This document shows positions 2,702-38,549 of a stretch of 38,687 nucleotides of DNA, piece by piece. The notes under the pieces are model-generated. The model saw only the letters and a program-made list of their open reading frames with translations. It had not been told where the DNA came from and did no database searches. A program made the translations under genes and the position numbers. Positions within the stretch are counted from its first letter, which is position 1. Every line of letters starts with the position of its first letter. Origin of the DNA: an uncultured Acidobacteriota bacterium (lineage in GTDB: Bacteria > Acidobacteriota > Thermoanaerobaculia > UBA5066); assembly GCA_937888435.1 (NCBI GenBank), contig CALAQS010000223.1, positions 1-38,687 on the forward strand, given 5' to 3'.

Positions 2702-3490
2702 ATGAACCACATCGTCTGCATCGCCTACGTTCCCGACACGGAAACGAAAATCCGCATCGCCGCCGGGGGCGTCTCGATCGACGAGGCGGACGTGAAGTGG
2801 ATCGTGTCCCCCTACGACGAGTACGCGCTCGAGGGAGCGCTCCAGATGAAGGAGGCAAAGGGCGGCACGGTCACGGCCCTAACATTCGGGCCCGCGCGCG
2901 CCGACACGGGCCTGCGCGAGTGCCTCGCCCGCGGCGCCGACGACGCAATCCGAATTGCCTCCGAGGGCCTCGGCGAAGTGGACTCGCTCGGCGTGGCGCG
3001 CCTCCTCGCGGGCGCCATCAAGGCGCTGCCGCACGACGTCGTGTGGATGGGCAACAAGGGCGTCGGCACGGACGCGCAGGTGCTCGTGCCGATGCTGGCC
3101 GAGCTGCTCGACCTGCCGCACGTGAATCTCGTGACGAAGCTCGAGTGGAAGGACGGCGCGGTCCTCGCCTACCGCGAGATCGAGGGCGCGCGGGAGATCG
3201 TCGAGATGCCGCTGCCCGGCGTCATCGGCGCCACGAAGGGCCTGAACGAGCCGCGCTACGCGTCGCTGAAAGGCATCATGGCCGCGAAGAAGAAGGCGAT
3301 CGCCGTGAAGACTCCGGCCGACGCCGGAGTGGACCCGGTTACGGTGGCGGGAGAGGCCGCGCACGTGCGCTGGACGAAGCTCGAGCTGCCGCCCGCTCGG
3401 CAGGCCGTGAAGCTGGTCCCCGGCGACGACCCGGCGAAAGCGGCGACGGAGCTTCTCCGGCTGCTGCGCGACGAGGCCAAAGTCCTTTGA
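2702..3490 (+). CDS. etfB: Electron transfer flavoprotein beta subunit
   Basis: The small subunit of the soluble ETF, which accepts electrons from acyl-CoA dehydrogenases and relatives and binds AMP (or FAD in bifurcating types). The 262 residues match the usual length. Typical blocks are IVCIAYVPDTETKIRI, IVSPYDEYALEGALQ, DLPHVNLVTKLEW, REIEGAREIVEMPLPGVIG and the C-terminal AAHVRWTKLELPP. I start at the ATG beginning MNHIVCIAYVP because homologues begin there; an upstream in-frame start would add only seven residues and no clear ribosome site distinguishes them. The TGA stop is inside a copy of the dispersed A+T-rich motif (3489-3510), and etfA starts 35 bases later, so the two are almost surely one operon. 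Confidence 0.96.
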   Translation: MNHIVCIAYVPDTETKIRIAAGGVSIDEADVKWIVSPYDEYALEGALQMKEAKGGTVTALTFGPARADTGLRECLARGADDAIRIASEGLGEVDSLGVARLLAGAIKALPHDVVWMGNKGVGTDAQVLVPMLAELLDLPHVNLVTKLEWKDGAVLAYREIEGAREIVEMPLPGVIGATKGLNEPRYASLKGIMAAKKKAIAVKTPADAGVDPVTVAGEAAHVRWTKLELPPARQAVKLVPGDDPAKAATELLRLLRDEAKVL

Positions 3491-3510
3491 AGATTTTCTT
3501 AGAAGGTTAA
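3489..3510 (-). repeat. Dispersed A+T-rich motif, copy at etfB stop
   Basis: GAAGATTTTCTTAGAAGG at 3489-3506 is identical over 18 bases to the copy at 33060-33077. On the minus strand the core is CCTTCTAAGAAAATC, 14 of 15 to the forward consensus. It begins in the etfB TGA and ends just before the etfA ribosome site. Confidence 0.8.
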
Positions 3511-3525
3511 GAGGGAAGGACAGCC

Positions 3526-4506
3526 ATGGCGAATGTCCTGGTCTTCATCGAGCAGCGCGATGGGAAGCTGAGAAAGTCCTCCCTCGAGGCGCTCAGCCTC
3601 GGCTATTCACTTTCTAGGAAAATCAGCGGCACCCTTGGAGCGGTGGTAGCAGGCTCTGGAATCTCTTCGCTGTCTTCCGAGCTCGCCGCGTACGGCGCCG
3701 CGAAGGTGTTCGTGGCCGACAGGCCCGAGCTAGCGCTCTTCTCCTCGGAGGGTTATACGGCGGCCCTCGACGCCGCCGCATCCGCGTTCAAGCCGTCCAT
3801 CGTCCTCGTCTCGGCGACGGCGATGGGGCTCGACGTCGCCGCGCGGTTCGCCGCGCGCCGCGGCGTGGGCGTGCTCTCGGACGTGATGACTCTGGACGTC
3901 GAGAACGGCCGCCTGGCGGGCGAGCGACCGGTGTATTCGGGCAAGGCGCGCGTTCTCGTCACGGCCGCGCCGAGCGCCGGGATCCAGGTCGCGACGCCGC
4001 GCCCGAACGTGTTTCCAGCTTCGAGATCGGATACGCCGGGCGCGGGCGAAGTCGTGAACCTCGACCTTCCGGCGCTGAAGATCCGCGCGAAGGTCGTGAA
4101 AGTGGAGGCAGCCGAGGCCGGCGAGATCGACGTGGCCGAGGCGGACAAGATCGTCTCCGGCGGGCGCGGCATCAAGGGGCCCGAGAGCTGGCCCATGCTG
4201 CGCGCGCTGTGCCACGAGCTGGGCGCCGCGCTGGGCGCCTCGCGCGCCGCGGTGGACGCGGGCTGGATCGGGCACGAGCACCAGGTTGGGCAGACCGGCA
4301 AGGTCGTGTCGCCGTCGCTCTACATCGCGTGCGGGGTCTCCGGCGCGATCCAGCACCTCGCGGGCATGGGCTCGTCGAAGGTCATCGTCGCCATCAACAA
4401 GGACCCCGAGGCGCCGATCTTCAAGGTGGCGACGTACGGCATCGTGGGCGACCTTTTCCAGATCGTGCCCGCGCTGACCGAAGCCGCGAAAAAGCTAAAG
4501 GCCTAG
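3526..4506 (+). CDS. etfA: Electron transfer flavoprotein alpha subunit
   Basis: The FAD-carrying ETF subunit, 326 residues, with a GGGAAGGA ribosome site just upstream. The N-terminal half is the Rossmann-like ETF fold. The C-terminal FAD-binding domain holds [31 protein letters not shown] (about residues 249-262), [12 protein letters not shown] and [12 protein letters not shown], all standard for EtfA. Residues 27-33 (YSLSRKI) are encoded by an A+T-rich motif copy whose codon choice differs sharply from the surrounding G+C-rich codons. Homologues usually have an Ala/Arg-rich helix at this place, so it is not an obvious insertion. The stop overlaps that of the convergent Ig-like gene in the tetranucleotide CTAG. 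Confidence 0.97.
3603..3624 (+). repeat. Dispersed A+T-rich motif, copy inside etfA
   Basis: Starts CTATTCAC and has core CTTTCTAGGAAAATC (14 of 15). Read in etfA as TAT TCA CTT TCT AGG AAA (Tyr-Ser-Leu-Ser-Arg-Lys). About 100 bases from, and inverted relative to, the copy at 3489. Confidence 0.75.
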
Positions 4507-6361: not shown

Positions 6362-8473
6362 ATGACGATCACGCCGGCCCAGGCCACGTATTTCGGGTTC
6401 TCCGGGACCCTCCTCTTCGCGCTTCTGCTGCTCGGCGCCCTTACCCTTTTCACGTACACCGCGTCGCGCCGCATCCAGCTCCTCACGCTCGGCGGGCCCC
6501 CCGAAGACCGCCTCGACCATCCGCTCGCGCGCCTGTGGCACATGGCCGAGTACGGGCTCCTGCAGCGGAAGATGTTCCGCGACCCGTACGCGGGCCTCTA
6601 CCACGCCCTCATCTTCAGCGGTTTCCTCGTGCTGCTGCTGCGCACGCTGATGCTCGTCTTCGAGGGCCTCTTCCCCGGGGCCGGGCTGCCGTTCCTTCCG
6701 ACGGGCTTCTGGCAGGGCTATCTCCTCGTCAAGGACCTCGTCCTCGTGACGACCTTCGCCGGCGTTGTCCTCGCGCTCGCGCGCCGCCACGTCGCGAAGA
6801 AAGAGCGGCTCGACCCGTCCTTCGACGCGGACCTCATCCTCCTGCTCATCGGCTTCCTGATGGTGACGGATCTCGGCGCCGGCGCCGCGAAAATGGCGCT
6901 GGATGCGGCGAAAAGCGCGGCTCTCGGCGCGACGCCAAGTACCGCTCTCGCCCAAAACGCTCTCTGGGAACCCCTGACCTATTCCCTTTCTAAGCAATTC
7001 TCTTTTCTTTCTTCGTCCTCTTTGCAGGCTATTTATTTCGGTGCGTGGTGGGCGCACCTCGTCGCGATCTTCGTCTTCGGGAACTACCTGCCCTTCGCGA
7101 AGCACTTCCACGTGATCACGGCGCTCCCGAACTTGTTCTTCGCGAAGCTCGAGCCCGCCGGGAAGATGGCGACGTTCGACATCGAGAGGGCGGCCGAGGC
7201 CGAGAAGTTCGGCGTGTCGAAGATCGAGGACTTCACCTGGAAGCAGAAGCTGGACATGTTCACGTGCACCGAGTGCGGGCGCTGCCGCGAGGTGTGCCCG
7301 ACTCACCTCACGGGCAAGCCGCTCACGCCGAAGGGCTTCATGGTGGACCTGCGCAATGCGCTCTACGCGGACGCGGACGCGCTGATCGACGCCGACGCCG
7401 GCCGCGGCGACGGCTCGGCCGAGGTGGCGCTCGCGGCGCGAAGGCCGCTCATCGGAGGCTGGATCGACGAGGAGACGATCTGGGCCTGCACGACGTGCCG
7501 CTACTGCGAGCACGCGTGCCCCGTGGGCATCACGTTCGTCGACAAGATCACCGACCTGCGCCGCCACCTCGTGCTCGAGAAGAGCTCGTTCCCGAAGGAG
7601 GCGCAGACGGCCTTCAACGGCATGGAGCGCCAGGGCAATCCGTGGAACCTCGCGGCTTCGGACCGCGCGGCGTGGACGGTGGACTTGCCGTTCCCGGTGC
7701 TCACGATGGCCGAAGCGGCGGACGCGAAGTTGGCCGGCGGAGTCGAGGTGCTTTTCTGGGTGGGCTGCGCGGGCTCGTACGAGGAGCGCGGCAAGCGCGT
7801 GTCGCGGTCGCTCGCGCGGCTGCTCCACGAGGCCGGCGTGACGTTCGCGATCCTCGGCACGGAGGAGACGTGCACGGGCGACGCGGCGCGCCGCCTTGGG
7901 AACGAGTATCTCTTCCAGACGCTCGCGCGGCAGAACGTCGAAACGATGAAGGGCTACGGCGTGACGAGGATCGTCACGAACTGCCCGCACTGCTTCAACA
8001 CGCTCGCGAACGAGTACCCCGACTTCGGCGGCACGTTCGAGGTGATGCATGGGACCGAGCTCGTGTCGCGGCTCGTTCGCGAGGGGAGGATCCGTCTCGT
8101 GAACGGCGAGGCCCGCTCGCTTTCCTTCCACGATCCCTGCTACCTCGGGCGCCACAACGGCGTGTACGACGCGCCGCGCGAGCTCCTGAACGCGATCCCG
8201 GGGATCGTGCTGAAGGAGCTGCCGTTGAGCCGCGGGAACGGCATGTGCTGCGGCGCGGGCGGCGGGCGAATGTGGCTGGACGAGACGATCGGCGCGCGCG
8301 TGAACCAGGCGCGGTTCGCCGAGATCGAGGCGAACGGGACGGACGCGGTCGGCGTCTCGTGCCCGTTCTGCATGGTGATGCTCGGCAACGCGAAGACCGA
8401 GCTCGCGGGCAGGACCGAGGCTTACGACGTCCTCGAGCTGGCCGCACAGGCGTTGCCCGCCCATCCGGGCTGA
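6362..8473 (+). CDS. Membrane Fe-S oxidoreductase with CCG domains, candidate ETF:quinone oxidoreductase
   Basis: A 703-residue membrane redox protein. The N-terminal third has about five hydrophobic helices with His residues (RLWHMAEYG, GLYHALIF, AWWAHLV, HFHVI) like a NarI-type haem b quinone domain. Then come two [4Fe-4S] ferredoxin motifs, CTECGRCREVCP (about residue 301) and CTTCRYCEHACP (about 376). Two cysteine-rich CCG (HdrD-like) domains follow, with CAGS, CPHC, CYLGRH, CCGAGGG and CPFC. Proteins of this build beside etfBA have been described as ETF:(mena)quinone oxidoreductases (EMO), and the proximity to etfBA supports the same role; the exact electron path is inference. Residues 207-220 (YSLSKQFSFLSSSS) are encoded by a dispersed A+T-rich motif copy and lie in the loop before the last helix. 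Confidence 0.88.
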   Translation: MTITPAQATYFGFSGTLLFALLLLGALTLFTYTASRRIQLLTLGGPPEDRLDHPLARLWHMAEYGLLQRKMFRDPYAGLYHALIFSGFLVLLLRTLMLVFEGLFPGAGLPFLPTGFWQGYLLVKDLVLVTTFAGVVLALARRHVAKKERLDPSFDADLILLLIGFLMVTDLGAGAAKMALDAAKSAALGATPSTALAQNALWEPLTYSLSKQFSFLSSSSLQAIYFGAWWAHLVAIFVFGNYLPFAKHFHVITALPNLFFAKLEPAGKMATFDIERAAEAEKFGVSKIEDFTWKQKLDMFTCTECGRCREVCPTHLTGKPLTPKGFMVDLRNALYADADALIDADAGRGDGSAEVALAARRPLIGGWIDEETIWACTTCRYCEHACPVGITFVDKITDLRRHLVLEKSSFPKEAQTAFNGMERQGNPWNLAASDRAAWTVDLPFPVLTMAEAADAKLAGGVEVLFWVGCAGSYEERGKRVSRSLARLLHEAGVTFAILGTEETCTGDAARRLGNEYLFQTLARQNVETMKGYGVTRIVTNCPHCFNTLANEYPDFGGTFEVMHGTELVSRLVREGRIRLVNGEARSLSFHDPCYLGRHNGVYDAPRELLNAIPGIVLKELPLSRGNGMCCGAGGGRMWLDETIGARVNQARFAEIEANGTDAVGVSCPFCMVMLGNAKTELAGRTEAYDVLELAAQALPAHPG
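6979..7020 (+). repeat. Dispersed A+T-rich motif with pyrimidine tract, inside Fe-S oxidoreductase gene
   Basis: CTATTCCCTTTCTAAGCAA followed by about 20 bases almost all C or T. Read as Tyr-Ser-Leu-Ser-Lys-Gln, then Phe/Ser/Leu codons. Shares CCTTTCTAAGCAA with the copy at 33151. Confidence 0.8.
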
Positions 8474-9235: not shown

Positions 9236-9259
9236 GGCGGCCCGGATTATCCTCCCGTC

Positions 9260-9724
9260 GTGAATTCCTCCGAAGGGGAAGACTGGAAGAAGCACCTGAA
9301 GTCGCTGGGGATCGTGCGCAAGAGGCGGCCGAAAAGGACGAAGGAAGAGAAAGAAAAAGAGAAAGATCTTAGAAAAGTCGAAGGCGGCCGGATCGGTGAA
9401 GACATCGCCTGCTCGTTATTCAAAGAAAATTCTCTTCGGATTCTCGATCGAAATGTCCGATACCCGGACGGAGAGATCGACATCGTCGCCCTAGACGGCG
9501 AGACGACCGTCTTCGTCGAGGTCAAGCGCCGCCGGGACGGGGCGTTGGGGACGCCGGCCGAGGCCGTGACGCGGACGAAGCGCGCGCGGGTCGTGCGGGC
9601 CGCCCGCCGCTGGCTCGCGGCGCACCCGGCGCGGGCGGGCTCCGTGCGGTTCGACGTCGTCGCCATTCAGGACGATTCCACGGCCGTCGAGTGGCTGCGC
9701 GGCGCGTTCGATGCGTCACGGTAA
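9260..9724 (+). CDS. YraN/UPF0102-family nuclease-fold protein
   Basis: A 154-residue member of the UPF0102 (YraN) family, which has a PD-(D/E)xK restriction-endonuclease-like fold and an ill-defined role in DNA metabolism. The core is standard: GGRIGEDIACSLFKENSLRILDRNVRYPDGEIDIVALDG, interrupted here only by description, with the catalytic-type series GEIDIV and FVEVK, then TKRARVVRAARRWL and RFDVVAI. Unlike typical members (about 120 residues) it has a roughly 40-residue Lys/Glu-rich N-terminal extension from a GTG start. That extension (KEKEKDLRKVEG) and the segment FKENSLRIL are encoded by two A+T-rich motif copies. A later GTG near 9315 would shorten the extension. Confidence 0.85.
   Translation: MNSSEGEDWKKHLKSLGIVRKRRPKRTKEEKEKEKDLRKVEGGRIGEDIACSLFKENSLRILDRNVRYPDGEIDIVALDGETTVFVEVKRRRDGALGTPAEAVTRTKRARVVRAARRWLAAHPARAGSVRFDVVAIQDDSTAVEWLRGAFDASR
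9341..9384 (-). repeat. Dispersed A+T-rich motif with purine tract, YraN-like gene
   Basis: On the plus strand a run of only A and G (9341-9365) then GATCTTAGAAAAGTCGAAGG. The minus-strand core matches TTTCTAAGA exactly, then skips three bases to TCTTTCTC. Encodes the Lys/Glu-rich N-terminal extension. Confidence 0.6.
9412..9446 (+). repeat. Diverged A+T-rich motif, YraN-like gene
   Basis: TTATTCAAAGAAAATTC then TCTTCGGATTCTCG. It matches 11 of 15 core positions, and its tail resembles ATTCGGATTCG of the copy at 33151. It lies 28 bases from the previous copy in opposite orientation. Confidence 0.45.
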
Positions 9725-11756: not shown

Positions 11757-11831
<75 letters not shown>

Positions 11832-17108: not shown

Positions 17109-18232
17109 GCGCGGACTCCGCCCGCGCGGGGCGCGGACGCGGCGGGGCCGAGGCCGAGCCGCTCGCGGTCGTAGTTTCCCGCCTGGATCGTCGCGCACCA
17201 TTCGAGATTCGACAGGTACCACCGCACCGTCCGAAGAAGACCTTCTTCGAATGAGTAAGAGGGGCTCCACCCGAGGTCGCGGCGGATCTTGGTTGCATCG
17301 ATCGCATAGCGGCGATCGTGGCCTGGCCGGTCTGGAACGAACGTCATGAGTTGCGCGTATCCCCCCTTGCCCTTCGAAGAGATCCTCGGAATCTTCGGGT
17401 TCTTCTCGGCCGGCCGCTCCTGCTCCAGCGCCGCGCAGAGCGCGTCGACGATCTGGAGGTTCGTCCGCTCGTTTCCGCCTCCGATGTTGTATTTGCTTCC
17501 GGGCGCGCCCTTCTCGAGGACGAGGAGGATGCCGCGACAGTGGTCCTCGACGTGGAGCCAGTCGCGCACGTTGCCGCCGTCGCCGTAAATCGGGAGGGGC
17601 TTTCCCTCGAGGGCGGTCAGGATCATGAGCGGAATGAGCTTTTCGGGGAATTGGTACGGCCCGTAGTTGTTCGAGCAGTTCGTCAGGAGCGTCGCGAGGC
17701 CGTACGTCTCGCGCCAGGCGCGCACGAGATGGTCCGCGGCGGCCTTCGACGCGGCGTACGGCGAGTTCGGCGCGTACGGCGTCTCCTCGGAGAAGAGGCC
17801 CGTCTCGCCCAGCGTGCCGTAGACCTCGTCGGTGGAGACGTGGAGGAACCGGAAGGCCTCGCGAGCGGCGGGCGGGAGGGCCGCGGCGTGCGCGCGCGAG
17901 GCCTCGAGCAGCTCGTACGTGCCGTTGACGTTCGTGTTGACGAACGCGCCCGGGCCGTCGATCGAGCGGTCGACGTGCGTTTCGGCTGCGAAGTTCAGGA
18001 CGGCGCGCGGCCGGTGGGCCGCCATGGCCGCTCGCATGGCGTCGCGGTCGGCGATGTCCGCCTCGATGAAGGCGAAGCGCGGGTTCCTCTCCACGTCGGC
18101 GAGGCTCGCGCGGTGCCCCGAGTACGTGAGCTTGTCGACGACGACGACGCGGTCGGGCGTTTCGGCGAGCGCGAGTCGCACAAAGTTCGAGCCGATGAAA
18201 CCGGCCCCGCCGGTGACGACGATGGACTCCAC
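17105..18232 (-). CDS. rmlB: dTDP-glucose 4,6-dehydratase
   Basis: This enzyme converts dTDP-glucose to dTDP-4-keto-6-deoxyglucose. It has 375 residues from a GTG start at [17 protein letters not shown]. Landmarks are the NAD loop [29 protein letters not shown] with the catalytic Asp-Glu, [44 protein letters not shown] and [16 protein letters not shown]. Between ALEQERPAE and [12 protein letters not shown] lies a Lys/Pro-rich stretch (about residues 278-292, [15 protein letters not shown]) that is longer than I expect for this loop, and it is encoded by a copy of the dispersed motif (17358-17400). A second copy encodes [12 protein letters not shown] near the C-terminus, a sequence normal for the family. 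Start GTG overlaps nothing upstream; divergent from trpB2. Confidence 0.97.
17233..17264 (-). repeat. Diverged motif (TTCGAAGAA variant), 3' part of rmlB
   Basis: Minus-strand core CATTCGAAGAAGGTC then TTCTTC, 11 of 15 to the consensus. The encoded SYSFEEGLL is normal for RmlB, so this may be a native sequence with unusual codons. Confidence 0.4.
17358..17400 (+). repeat. Diverged motif inside rmlB, at a possible extra loop
   Basis: TATCCCCCCTTGCCCTTCGA then AGAGATCCTCGGAATCTTCGG lines up with the copy at 33151 (TATCCC, CTT-CC, TTC-AAG, ATCCTC). It is more G+C-rich than the other copies and encodes [15 protein letters not shown] in rmlB. Confidence 0.45.
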
Positions 18233-30378: not shown

Positions 30379-31031
30379 TTTGTTTCGGAAGAAGAAAGAG
30401 AAGATTTCTTAGAAGGGGAATGTCCGGAGGCGGCGGGTTCCGGCTGGCTCGCGAGCGCCGCCGTGTCGAGGTGTTCCCGATCTCCCTTTTCCAGAAAATC
30501 CCCGGGCATGTGCTGCGAGGCCTGGAGCGTGCGGATCCACGCGACGACGGCCCAGCGGTCCTCGGGGGTCACCTGCACGGCGTATCCCGACATCTGGCCG
30601 AAGCCGTTCGTGATGACGTCGAAGAAGTAGCCCGCGCGCTCGGCTCTCAGGCGGTCCGCGTGGAAGGAGGTCGGGCGCTTGAAGCCGCGCTGCACGATCA
30701 TGCCCTGGCCCTGGCCCGTTCGGCCGTGGCACGGAGAGCAGAAGACGTTGAAGCGCTCCTGGCCGCGCAGGAGGAGCGCGCGCGTGAGCGGCACGGGGAT
30801 CTGCTCGACGAACTTGCCGTCGGGGCCATGGCCGCGCCAGAGCGCGGAGTCTTCGCGGAGGAAGCCGCGGGCCACGGTGCCTTCGGGCAGCGCGCGCGCC
30901 GACGCGCCGTCCGCGAAGAACTTGCTCTCGCGAAAGGGCTTGATCTTGGCCTGATGGTGCATGTCGTTCCGGCAACCGGAAAGAGCGAGCGCGAGAACCG
31001 GTCCGCCTGCCAGGAAGAGAAGCCGGCGCAT
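30375..31031 (-). CDS. actE: Alternative complex III mono-haem cytochrome c lipoprotein ActE
   Basis: A 218-residue periplasmic cytochrome c. The start MRRLLFLAGGPVLALALSGC is a lipoprotein signal with lipobox LSGC. The single haem motif is CSPCH, with GQGMIVQRGFKRPTSFHAD and TNGFGQMSGYA around the expected Met ligand. ActE is the likely exit point for electrons toward the oxidase. The last 15 residues (HSPSKKSSLSSSETK) are Ser/Lys-rich, unlike the rest, and are encoded by a dispersed motif copy that continues to the overlapping actF start. The ATG shares one base with the actD stop (TGATG). Confidence 0.95.
   Translation of the reverse strand: MRRLLFLAGGPVLALALSGCRNDMHHQAKIKPFRESKFFADGASARALPEGTVARGFLREDSALWRGHGPDGKFVEQIPVPLTRALLLRGQERFNVFCSPCHGRTGQGQGMIVQRGFKRPTSFHADRLRAERAGYFFDVITNGFGQMSGYAVQVTPEDRWAVVAWIRTLQASQHMPGDFLEKGDREHLDTAALASQPEPAASGHSPSKKSSLSSSETK
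30381..30422 (-). repeat. Dispersed A+T-rich motif with tract, actE/actF junction
   Basis: Plus strand: TTTCGGAAG, a purine run, then GAAGATTTCTTAGAAGGGG. Resembles the copy at 33043 along its whole length (TTCGGAA, purines, GAAGATTT-CTTAGAAGGG, AAT). Encodes the ActE C-terminus and reaches the actF start. Confidence 0.8.
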
Positions 31032-33018: not shown

Positions 33019-33042
33019 CAGAAGAGATCCGGAAAATTCTGC

Positions 33043-33085
33043 TTCGGAAAAGAGAAGAAGAAGATTTTCTTAGAAGGGCAATAGG
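33043..33085 (-). repeat. Dispersed A+T-rich motif with tract, actB/actC gap
   Basis: Plus strand: TTCGGAAAAGAG, a GAA-rich run, then GAAGATTTTCTTAGAAGGGC and AATAGG. Its 18-base core equals that at 3489. It is intergenic, 24-67 bases upstream of the actC start. Confidence 0.85.
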
Positions 33086-33150
33086 GCATTGCCCCGACCG
33101 CCGAGGTGCATGAGAAGCATGCGGGGACCGACGACGACGGCATGGGAGCT

Positions 33151-33190
33151 CTATCCCTCTTCCTTTCTAAGCAAATCCTCATTCGGATTC
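33151..33190 (+). repeat. Dispersed A+T-rich motif, end of actB
   Basis: CTATCCCTCTTCCTTTCTAA then GCAAATCCTCATTCGGATTC; core CTTTCTAAGCAAATC matches 14 of 15. On the minus strand it encodes the last residues and TAG stop of ActB. Inverted relative to the copy at 33043. Confidence 0.8.
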
Positions 33191-36830: not shown

Positions 36831-38549
36831 GTGCTCTCCCGCGCCACCCGCTCGCGCGTCACGGCGCCCCTCGCCGTGTTCGCGCTCGTCCTCGCGTTGC
36901 GCGCCGCCTCGCTCGCGTCGCTCGTCGCGACGCCGCTCGCGTCGTGGCACCTCTGGATGGAGACGGACGAGCACGCGTACGTCGAGTGGTCGGCCCGTCT
37001 CGCGGCCGGGAACTGGGCCGACGTTCCCGCGTACCGGGCGTACTTCAACTGGCAGAAGGGCTACGGTCCGCCAGAAACGTGGGAGCGCTGGTATCAGAAG
37101 AACGCGTACTACGCGGGACCGCTGTACCCGTACGGGCTCGCGCTCGTGCGGGTCGTCTTCGGGTCGCCGTTTCTGCCTGCGCGGCTCCTGCAGCTGCTCC
37201 TCGCGTGCGCCGCCTCGGCGCTCCTGGCGATGGCGGTGCAAAAACTCATAGAAGATTCTCTTCGAGATGGGAGAGAGGGTGGCGTTCGCGTCGCGTTCTG
37301 GTGTGCCCTGGCAGCGGGCGTCTTCTACGGCGCGTACGGCCCGCTCGTCTTCCACGACTTCTTCCTCTACCGCGACGGGCCCGTCGCGCACGTGTCGACC
37401 CTTCTGGTCGCTCTGCCGCTGATTGCGAGGGGGAGGTCCGAGGAGAAGAAAGAAAAGAAAGAGATTTCTTCGAATGAGGAAAGCGGGAGATGGATGCGCC
37501 GCGCCGGCTGGTCCGCGCTTCTTCTCGGGCTCCTCGGCGGCCTTGCGATGCTCCTCAAGCAGACCACGGCGCCGCTGGCGCTCGCCTCTCTCTATTCACT
37601 CTCTAAGAAATCCCCGGTCGGCGGCGGTCGCCGCCGCTCTCTCGTCTTCGGGCTCCTCGGTCTTGCGATCCCGCTCAGCGTCCTCGCGGCGCGGAACGTC
37701 TCCGCCGGAGTCCCGCCGCTCACGTTCGACACGCGGCAGGCGATCGGCCTCGCGTGGGGCAACGGCCTCGGCGCGGACGCGACGACGAACCCGCCTCCGG
37801 ACATGAAGGAGATCCTCGAGGAGGCGGGCGGGTCGACGCTGAAGACCGCGAAGCTCGTCCTCGAGGAATACCGGCAGGAGCCGTTCGAGATGCCGAAGCT
37901 GCTCCTCAAGAAGCTCGCGACGTTCTTTAACGCCTACGAGGTCCCGGACAACGCGAACTTCTACTTCTTCCGGGACCGGCTGCCGCTGCTGAAGGCGCTG
38001 CCCGTCTTCCCCTGCCTCCTCGGGATCGGGGGAGTCGGACTTTGCGCGGCGCTCGCGCGCCGCGTGCTCAGAAGGGAAGAAGGACTCCTGGCGTTCGTCG
38101 CGATCCTCGCCCCTCTCGCGGCGTGTCTCCTCGTCCAGACGACGTCCCGTTACCGGGTGGGAGCGATCGGGCCGCTGGCCCTTGGGGCCGGCCTCTTTCT
38201 TTTCTTCGCATTCGAAGAAATCCGCCGGCGCCGCTGGCGAGCTGCCTGCACTCTTGCCGCGGCGGCGGGTGCGCTGTCCTTCGTCCCAATGCTTCCCTCC
38301 GTCATTCCCGTGGAAAGGCACCGCTTCTCGGACACGCTCGTCTACGCGACGATCGTCGAGGGGCAGGACGGGCCGGCCGCGGCGGCGGTCGAGGTGCGCC
38401 GCTACCTCGAGGAGGGGGGCGACGACACGCGACGGCAGGTCGGCATCGCGGCCGTGCGGTACTGGGTCGAAAGCGGCGACCGCTCGAGCTCGCTCGTCGA
38501 GCCCTCCGGCATCGCGCCGCCCGGGAAGAGGCTGCGCGAGAGGAAATGA
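36831..38549 (+). CDS. Polytopic glycosyltransferase-like membrane protein (GT-C, ArnT/PMT-like)
   Basis: A 572-residue protein with about ten helices, from a GTG start with no clear ribosome site. The first periplasmic loop has WMETDEHAYVEWSARLAAG, the Asp-Glu pattern of GT-C enzymes that take sugars from polyprenyl-phosphate donors; substrate unknown. It ends in a small soluble domain rich in charged residues. Four dispersed motif copies lie in it: residues 137-149 (KLIEDSLRDGREGG), 204-219 (EEKKEKKEISSNEESG), 254-262 (YSLSKK) and about 455-465 (FLFFAFEEIRR). All four fall at or just after the end of a helix, in basic loops that should be cytoplasmic. It is divergent from actA. Confidence 0.75.
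   Translation: MLSRATRSRVTAPLAVFALVLALRAASLASLVATPLASWHLWMETDEHAYVEWSARLAAGNWADVPAYRAYFNWQKGYGPPETWERWYQKNAYYAGPLYPYGLALVRVVFGSPFLPARLLQLLLACAASALLAMAVQKLIEDSLRDGREGGVRVAFWCALAAGVFYGAYGPLVFHDFFLYRDGPVAHVSTLLVALPLIARGRSEEKKEKKEISSNEESGRWMRRAGWSALLLGLLGGLAMLLKQTTAPLALASLYSLSKKSPVGGGRRRSLVFGLLGLAIPLSVLAARNVSAGVPPLTFDTRQAIGLAWGNGLGADATTNPPPDMKEILEEAGGSTLKTAKLVLEEYRQEPFEMPKLLLKKLATFFNAYEVPDNANFYFFRDRLPLLKALPVFPCLLGIGGVGLCAALARRVLRREEGLLAFVAILAPLAACLLVQTTSRYRVGAIGPLALGAGLFLFFAFEEIRRRRWRAACTLAAAAGALSFVPMLPSVIPVERHRFSDTLVYATIVEGQDGPAAAAVEVRRYLEEGGDDTRRQVGIAAVRYWVESGDRSSSLVEPSGIAPPGKRLRERK
37241..37275 (-). repeat. Diverged motif inside the glycosyltransferase-like gene (copy 1)
   Basis: Plus strand ATAGAAGATTCTCTTCGAGA then TGGGAGAG. 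It matches 18 of 25 positions of the reverse-orientation consensus. Read as Glu-Asp-Ser-Leu-Arg, like Glu-Asp-Leu-Leu-Arg at the ActB end. Confidence 0.6.
37441..37487 (-). repeat. Motif with purine tract inside the glycosyltransferase-like gene (copy 2)
   Basis: A 23-base purine run precedes GAGATTTCTTCGAATGAGG. The minus-strand core CATTCGAAGAAATC is identical over 14 bases to the copy at 38193-38223. Encodes a Lys/Glu-rich loop. Confidence 0.65.
37592..37613 (+). repeat. Dispersed A+T-rich motif inside the glycosyltransferase-like gene (copy 3)
   Basis: CTATTCACTCTCTAAGAAAT then CC. It agrees with the etfA copy at 17 of the first 19 bases and is read in the same frame (TAT TCA CTC TCT AAG AAA, Tyr-Ser-Leu-Ser-Lys-Lys). 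Confidence 0.8.
38193..38223 (+). repeat. Motif (TTCGAAGAA variant) inside the glycosyltransferase-like gene (copy 4)
   Basis: CTCTTTCTTTTCTTCG then CATTCGAAGAAATCC. It shares 14 identical bases with the inverted copy at 37441-37487. Encodes the end of a helix and the start of a basic loop (FFAFEEIRR). Confidence 0.5.

Follow-up and report, generated by a model that had tools for sequence, protein, structure and literature searches.

A polar motif of about 30 nt is maintained across a genus of Thermoanaerobaculia-related Acidobacteriota as a DNA-level signal made up of two convergent sites. The window analysed here is a 38,687-nucleotide stretch from one genome of this genus (G000), and four copies of the motif lie in a single membrane-protein gene near its end. 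A first-pass annotation of the sequence had described these four copies but overlooked the unit, which is the convergent pair, and the explanation that we prefer assigns the four copies no specific role in the glycosyltransferase-like protein. Short motifs scattered through bacterial genomes are as a rule interpreted as terminators, as repeats carried by transposons or as uptake tags. The present motif has features of all three, yet for each of them it fails a test that defines the class; its geometry is strict in polarity, spacing (60–220 nt) and lack of phasing. We tentatively regard it as a genus-specific recognition motif of ~30 bp, with a convergent pair 60–220 bp apart as its unit and a self-DNA tag as its most likely role. 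If the pair is functional, bacterial genomes can carry two-site signals genome-wide, and selection at the DNA level would explain, as its by-products, the loops with charged residues and the unusual C-terminal tails in this genus. No description of such a motif was found in the Acidobacteriota literature consulted, which was less than a full literature search.

The consensus, approximately rrGATTTTCTTMGAARGkkAAkrrGG, consists of a purine-rich left flank, GATTTTCTTMGAARG and then kkAAkrrGG. Allowing at most one mismatch, the pattern GATTTYCTTMGAADG gave 116, 99, 121 and 128 matches in the four genomes of the genus (G000 to G003; congener MAGs include JARXKK01 and JAMQPJ01), about equally divided between the strands, compared to 0–3 matches in each of ten other genomes of the family and 0–1 for the reversed pattern in the congeners. 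With at most two mismatches there were 296 matches in G000 compared to 23 for the control. Variants with one T fewer (GATTTCTTMGAADG) were about as common as the full form (25 vs 29 in 694 kb, with none for the reversed pattern). Among AT-rich 8-mers and 10-mers, the strongest ones of G000 and G002 were pieces of the motif, G005 and G006 had no such k-mers, and a sister-genus dialect of the motif was not found in 200 kb of each of the latter two genomes. All genomes were draft MAGs, with tool-assigned kinship labels for the relatives. For scoring, near-exact copies from G000 and one congener, but not from G003, were turned into a 30-column matrix; densities were based on 0.69 Mb of G000, 0.34 Mb of G002 and 0.78 Mb of G003 in addition to the whole-genome pattern counts. 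Counts depended on the threshold chosen; the direction of each result did not.

The arrangement of neighbouring copies was strongly one-sided. Among neighbours 40–300 nt apart, 76 were convergent and 3 divergent in G000, 39 and 4 in G002, and 53 and 1 in G003, the genome outside the matrix training. A facing partner (counted at a score of at least 0 and within 300 nt) was present for 79% of 258 strong copies, compared to 13% for the opposed arrangement. Partner distances set in near 60 nt and had faded by about 220 nt, with no 10–11 nt (10.5-bp) periodicity and no modulo 3 preference. Within the window, pairs lie at 3492/3610, 9262 or 9362/9417, 17239/17371, 30402/30486 and 33063/33163, with two more in the membrane-protein gene at 37462 (and 37254)/37599 and, formed with a half copy, at 38067/38209 (Table 1).

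Table 1. Motif copies in the window and the membrane-protein gene that carries four of them.
Feature	Position	Strand	Score (bits)	Remarks
Left arm, etfB/etfA junction	3488..3517	+	43.9	Present in G002 and G003; degenerate in G001
Right arm in etfA (encodes YSLSRKI)	3599..3628	-	31.2	Partner of 3488..3517
Copy in Fe-S oxidoreductase gene	6975..7004	-	31.1	No strong partner; kept in all four species
Right arm in YraN-family gene	9406..9435	-		Nearest + copies 9258-9287 and 9358-9387; scores for the three copies 17.2, 15.6 and 10.1 bits
Left arm in dTDP-glucose 4,6-dehydratase gene (TIGR01181, 475 bits)	17235..17264	+	28.2	In four of four species
Right arm	17360..17389	-	18.0	Partner of 17235..17264; recognisable in four of four species, variable loop
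Left arm, 3' end of cytochrome c gene, Act-like (alternative complex III) cluster	30398..30427	+	23.9	
Right arm	30475..30504	-	19.4	Partner of 30398..30427; recognisable in all four species
Left arm in ~150-nt intergenic stretch	33059..33088	+	41.1	
Right arm	33152..33181	-	33.1	Partner of 33059..33088; present in G002
Membrane-protein gene, GT-C/PMT-like (weak)	36831..38549	+		Open reading frame, 572 codons
Motif copy 1	37250..37279	+	23.1	From codon alignment; directly 3' of a hydrophobic segment
Motif copy 2	37458..37487	+	21.9	In species-unique insertion
Motif copy 3	37588..37617	-	20.8	Faces copies 1 and 2 (137 nt to copy 2)
Half copy (right half CTCAGAAGGGAAGAAGG)	38067..38083	+		From codon alignment; faces copy 4; G002 and G003 share the right half
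Motif copy 4	38198..38227	-	20.3	

The copies are kept as DNA. Relative to the gene strand, 130 were sense and 130 antisense, all six frames were occupied, and 28% lay outside called genes, though ~92% of the sequence was called coding. The even strand split, the use of all six frames and the intergenic share indicate that the target is not a peptide and not a transcript. The protein loop is thus not what is conserved, and a function of the loops at the protein level was rejected on the six-frame and intergenic occurrence. At orthologous sites 183 of 232 arms were retained, in comparisons that were reciprocal and therefore partly redundant. Identity was about 0.90 in the core, ~0.75 in the immediate surroundings and ~0.82 at 60–120 nt outside, which agrees with the earlier suggestion that the copies occupy permissive positions. 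An indel accompanied 19 of 38 absent arms and the other 19 had none. At this evolutionary distance, joint loss of both arms was not above the expectation for independent loss (3 pairs with both lost compared to about 4 expected, of 81). Among the arms of the window, the right arm in etfA was present in G000 and G003 and substituted, with length unchanged, in G001 and G002, and the left arm in the cytochrome c gene was present in G003 and absent from G001 and G002.

The four copies placed at 37241, 37441, 37592 and 38193 by the first-pass annotation were all present and far above chance. They score 20–23 bits on the matrix built from near-exact copies. In 694 kb of G000, 149 matches reach at least 20 bits, compared to 0, 0 and 2 when the sequence was put through order-3 shuffling three times; the matrix training drew on part of the sequence behind the chance estimates, with G003 as the exception. 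The four 15-nt cores begin at 37254 (+), 37462 (+), 37599 (-) and 38209 (-), an order of + + - - that the first-pass annotation had not stated, and copies 2, 3 and 4 are of the variant type with one T fewer. Few genes hold four strong copies, but this gene is not the only one: there were 8 among 923 sampled. The peptides quoted for the copies were correct, and by hydropathy each of the four falls within a loop or borders a hydrophobic segment. The label 'glycosyltransferase-like' rests on a PMT_2 match below the cut-off (E = 0.0085). Two congeners have homologues of the protein at 66% and 65%, and other genera of the family have homologues at 45–49% along most of its length.

Repeated insertion had been proposed for these copies, with loop-length variation among homologues at the four points as the check. 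In two alignments, one of codons (two congeners and three more distant homologues) and a wider one of proteins, such variation was seen at sites 1–3 and not at site 4. The stretch at site 1 is missing or shorter in other genera and variable in length; copy 1 has better matches in G002 and G003 (one base off in the core of G002 and a perfect core in G003) and is absent in other genera. Site 2 (37441) is an insertion of ~60 nt found in this species only and absent from the other 11 homologues aligned. Site 3 is common to the genus, with length differences of 0, 2 or 4 codons. At site 4 no length difference separates this species from its congeners or from most homologues in other genera, so copy 4, which has a strong match in G002 and a degenerate one in G003, was formed by substitution. 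Genome-wide, indels likewise account for about one half of the absent copies and substitutions for the other, and the organisation in convergent pairs makes repeated insertion alone insufficient as an explanation.

The motif is nearest to DNA uptake sequences in its density, its restriction to one lineage, its neutrality to strand and frame, its permissive placement and its gain by both substitution and indel, and a tag role is proposed on this basis at modest confidence. Like the DUS of Neisseriaceae and the USS of Pasteurellaceae the motif occurs in hundreds of copies, is strongly over-represented in one lineage only, stands on both strands and in any frame, tolerates intragenic sites where these are permissive and is enriched between genes. 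It differs in length (~30 bp compared to DUS/USS cores of 9–12 bp) and in being inverted at 60–220 nt with near-obligatory pairing and no stem constraint. Published uptake sequences are bound singly and their orientation is irrelevant (PMC1939737), whereas convergent pairs dominate here, a difference of arrangement and not of activity; DUS/USS inverted pairs also occur, but form hairpin terminators (PMC3630211). Given this single-site recognition and these terminator pairs, the motif was not filed as a DUS. ComEC was found in all 14 genomes searched, including the four of the genus and motif-free relatives, and being universal among them it does not discriminate for an uptake role.

Under the preferred reading as a self-DNA tag, a protein with defined polarity would bind each copy, and an effect would require two bound copies pointing inward, probably in a symmetric assembly. 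The complex may span or enclose the intervening DNA flexibly and not as a rigid short loop, as the spacing is broad and unphased. The pair would then be read as a two-site signal marking self DNA, as in competence, a role proposed from the distribution of the copies. Copies would accumulate wherever the protein sequence tolerates them, which would account for those found in loops of membrane proteins, in C-terminal tails and at gene junctions. Two results speak against this reading: at this evolutionary distance arms were lost together no more often than independent loss would give, and the two other genera sampled had no comparable motif. Two inward-facing polar sites with broad, unphased spacing are also found in systems of licensing or collision at convergent sites, such as yeast ORC sites and type III restriction sites; this is an analogy of arrangement only. 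It is possible, if doubtful, that the motif represents a previously undescribed class of genome tag, with paired convergent sites read by protein at flexible spacing, and a symmetric two-site machine not known from other bacteria.

A role in chromosome architecture is unlikely. Here a nucleoid-associated or condensin-like factor would be bounded or bridged by inward-facing sites, organising the DNA every ~10 kb. The polar convergent sites are genome-wide, strand-neutral and both genic and intergenic, as such a role would have them, and their density of about 0.07–0.11 pairs per kb with near-Poisson placement is compatible with it. However, the placement of pairs along the chromosome was no more even than random, the motif is absent from sister genera, and pair spacing at 60–220 bp showed none of the helical phasing that short rigid loops would need.

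Less probable still is an origin as relics of a small MITE- or REPIN-like mobile element with the arms as its inverted ends. REPINs consist of two inverted copies of a short motif ~50–200 nt apart, in hundreds per genome (PMC3116915), and the inverted doublets found here lie at similar distances. REPINs, however, are extragenic, form hairpins, favour spacings of 71 or 110 bp and come with a RAYT gene, whereas 70 of 108 pairs were wholly intragenic (by gene calls from a simple codon model), with no hairpin constraint and no fixed spacing, and a Y1_Tnp/RAYT transposase was found in none of G000 to G003, while most sister genera have one. A REPIN/RAYT system was rejected on the missing transposase, and location, hairpin and spacing also spoke against it. 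MITEs and other terminal inverted repeats share with the pairs the inverted ends around a short interval and some presence or absence between species. The ~150 nt at 33023–33173 missing in G001 and G003 fit a MITE-type empty site (no clear target-site duplication was seen by eye at 33023/33173), and ~80 nt around 30402 are missing in G001 and G002, as are the ~60 nt at 37441 from all but G000. Most orthologous comparisons nevertheless keep the interval, which is normally ordinary host coding DNA shared with species that lack the arms (etfA; many equal spacings), and half of the absent arms went without an indel.

Paired nicking or recombination initiation, in which strand-specific nicks at two inward copies within ~220 bp would give a break with defined overhangs, is less probable again. 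It would account for the polarity, the minimum and maximum spacing and the lack of phasing, and G+C between the arms was 2.2 ± 0.7 points above the flanks, but the sequence immediately on the inner and on the outer side of the arms had diverged to a similar degree (0.747 vs 0.762). Least probable of all is a hairpin of RNA or single-stranded DNA in which the arms pair into a long-loop stem: the arms are inverted, and complementary through their shared consensus, but arms of the same pair matched no better than swapped arms (core 0.688 vs 0.696; longest shared run 7.5 vs 7.8; duplex -36.5 vs -35.9 ± 0.56 kcal/mol) and the variable position 9 (A/C) showed no covariation, so that a hairpin or terminator function is ruled out by the arm-swap tests at their current resolution.

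A viral origin was also considered and set aside. The seven viral contigs in which the motif was matched exactly are AT-rich (33–45% G+C); in two of them (L322 and L327) a second match faces the exact one within 300 nt, where weak background matches are dense, and these were read as chance.

Several further observations were made in the window and in related genomes. No known RNA family coincided with the motif in an Rfam search of the window, in which the sole match was a tRNA gene on the minus strand (11760–11831). In the region 6900–7004, length-variable coding sequence lies directly upstream of the strong lone minus copy in the Fe-S oxidoreductase gene. Two genes of the Act cluster meet at an overlapping stop/start in G001 and G003 (window 33019–33173), and the same genes are ~130 nt apart in G000 with a motif arm in between. 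In G005, of the same family (L141 to L150), GGGACAGACA was enriched (12 compared to 0.3 expected) and 10 Y1/RAYT transposase matches were found, which suggests an ordinary REP/RAYT system in that genome. Finally, an orthologous intragenic pair in G000 and G002 (L117 11201/11351 and L087 8626/8776) has an identical spacing of 150 nt in both genomes.
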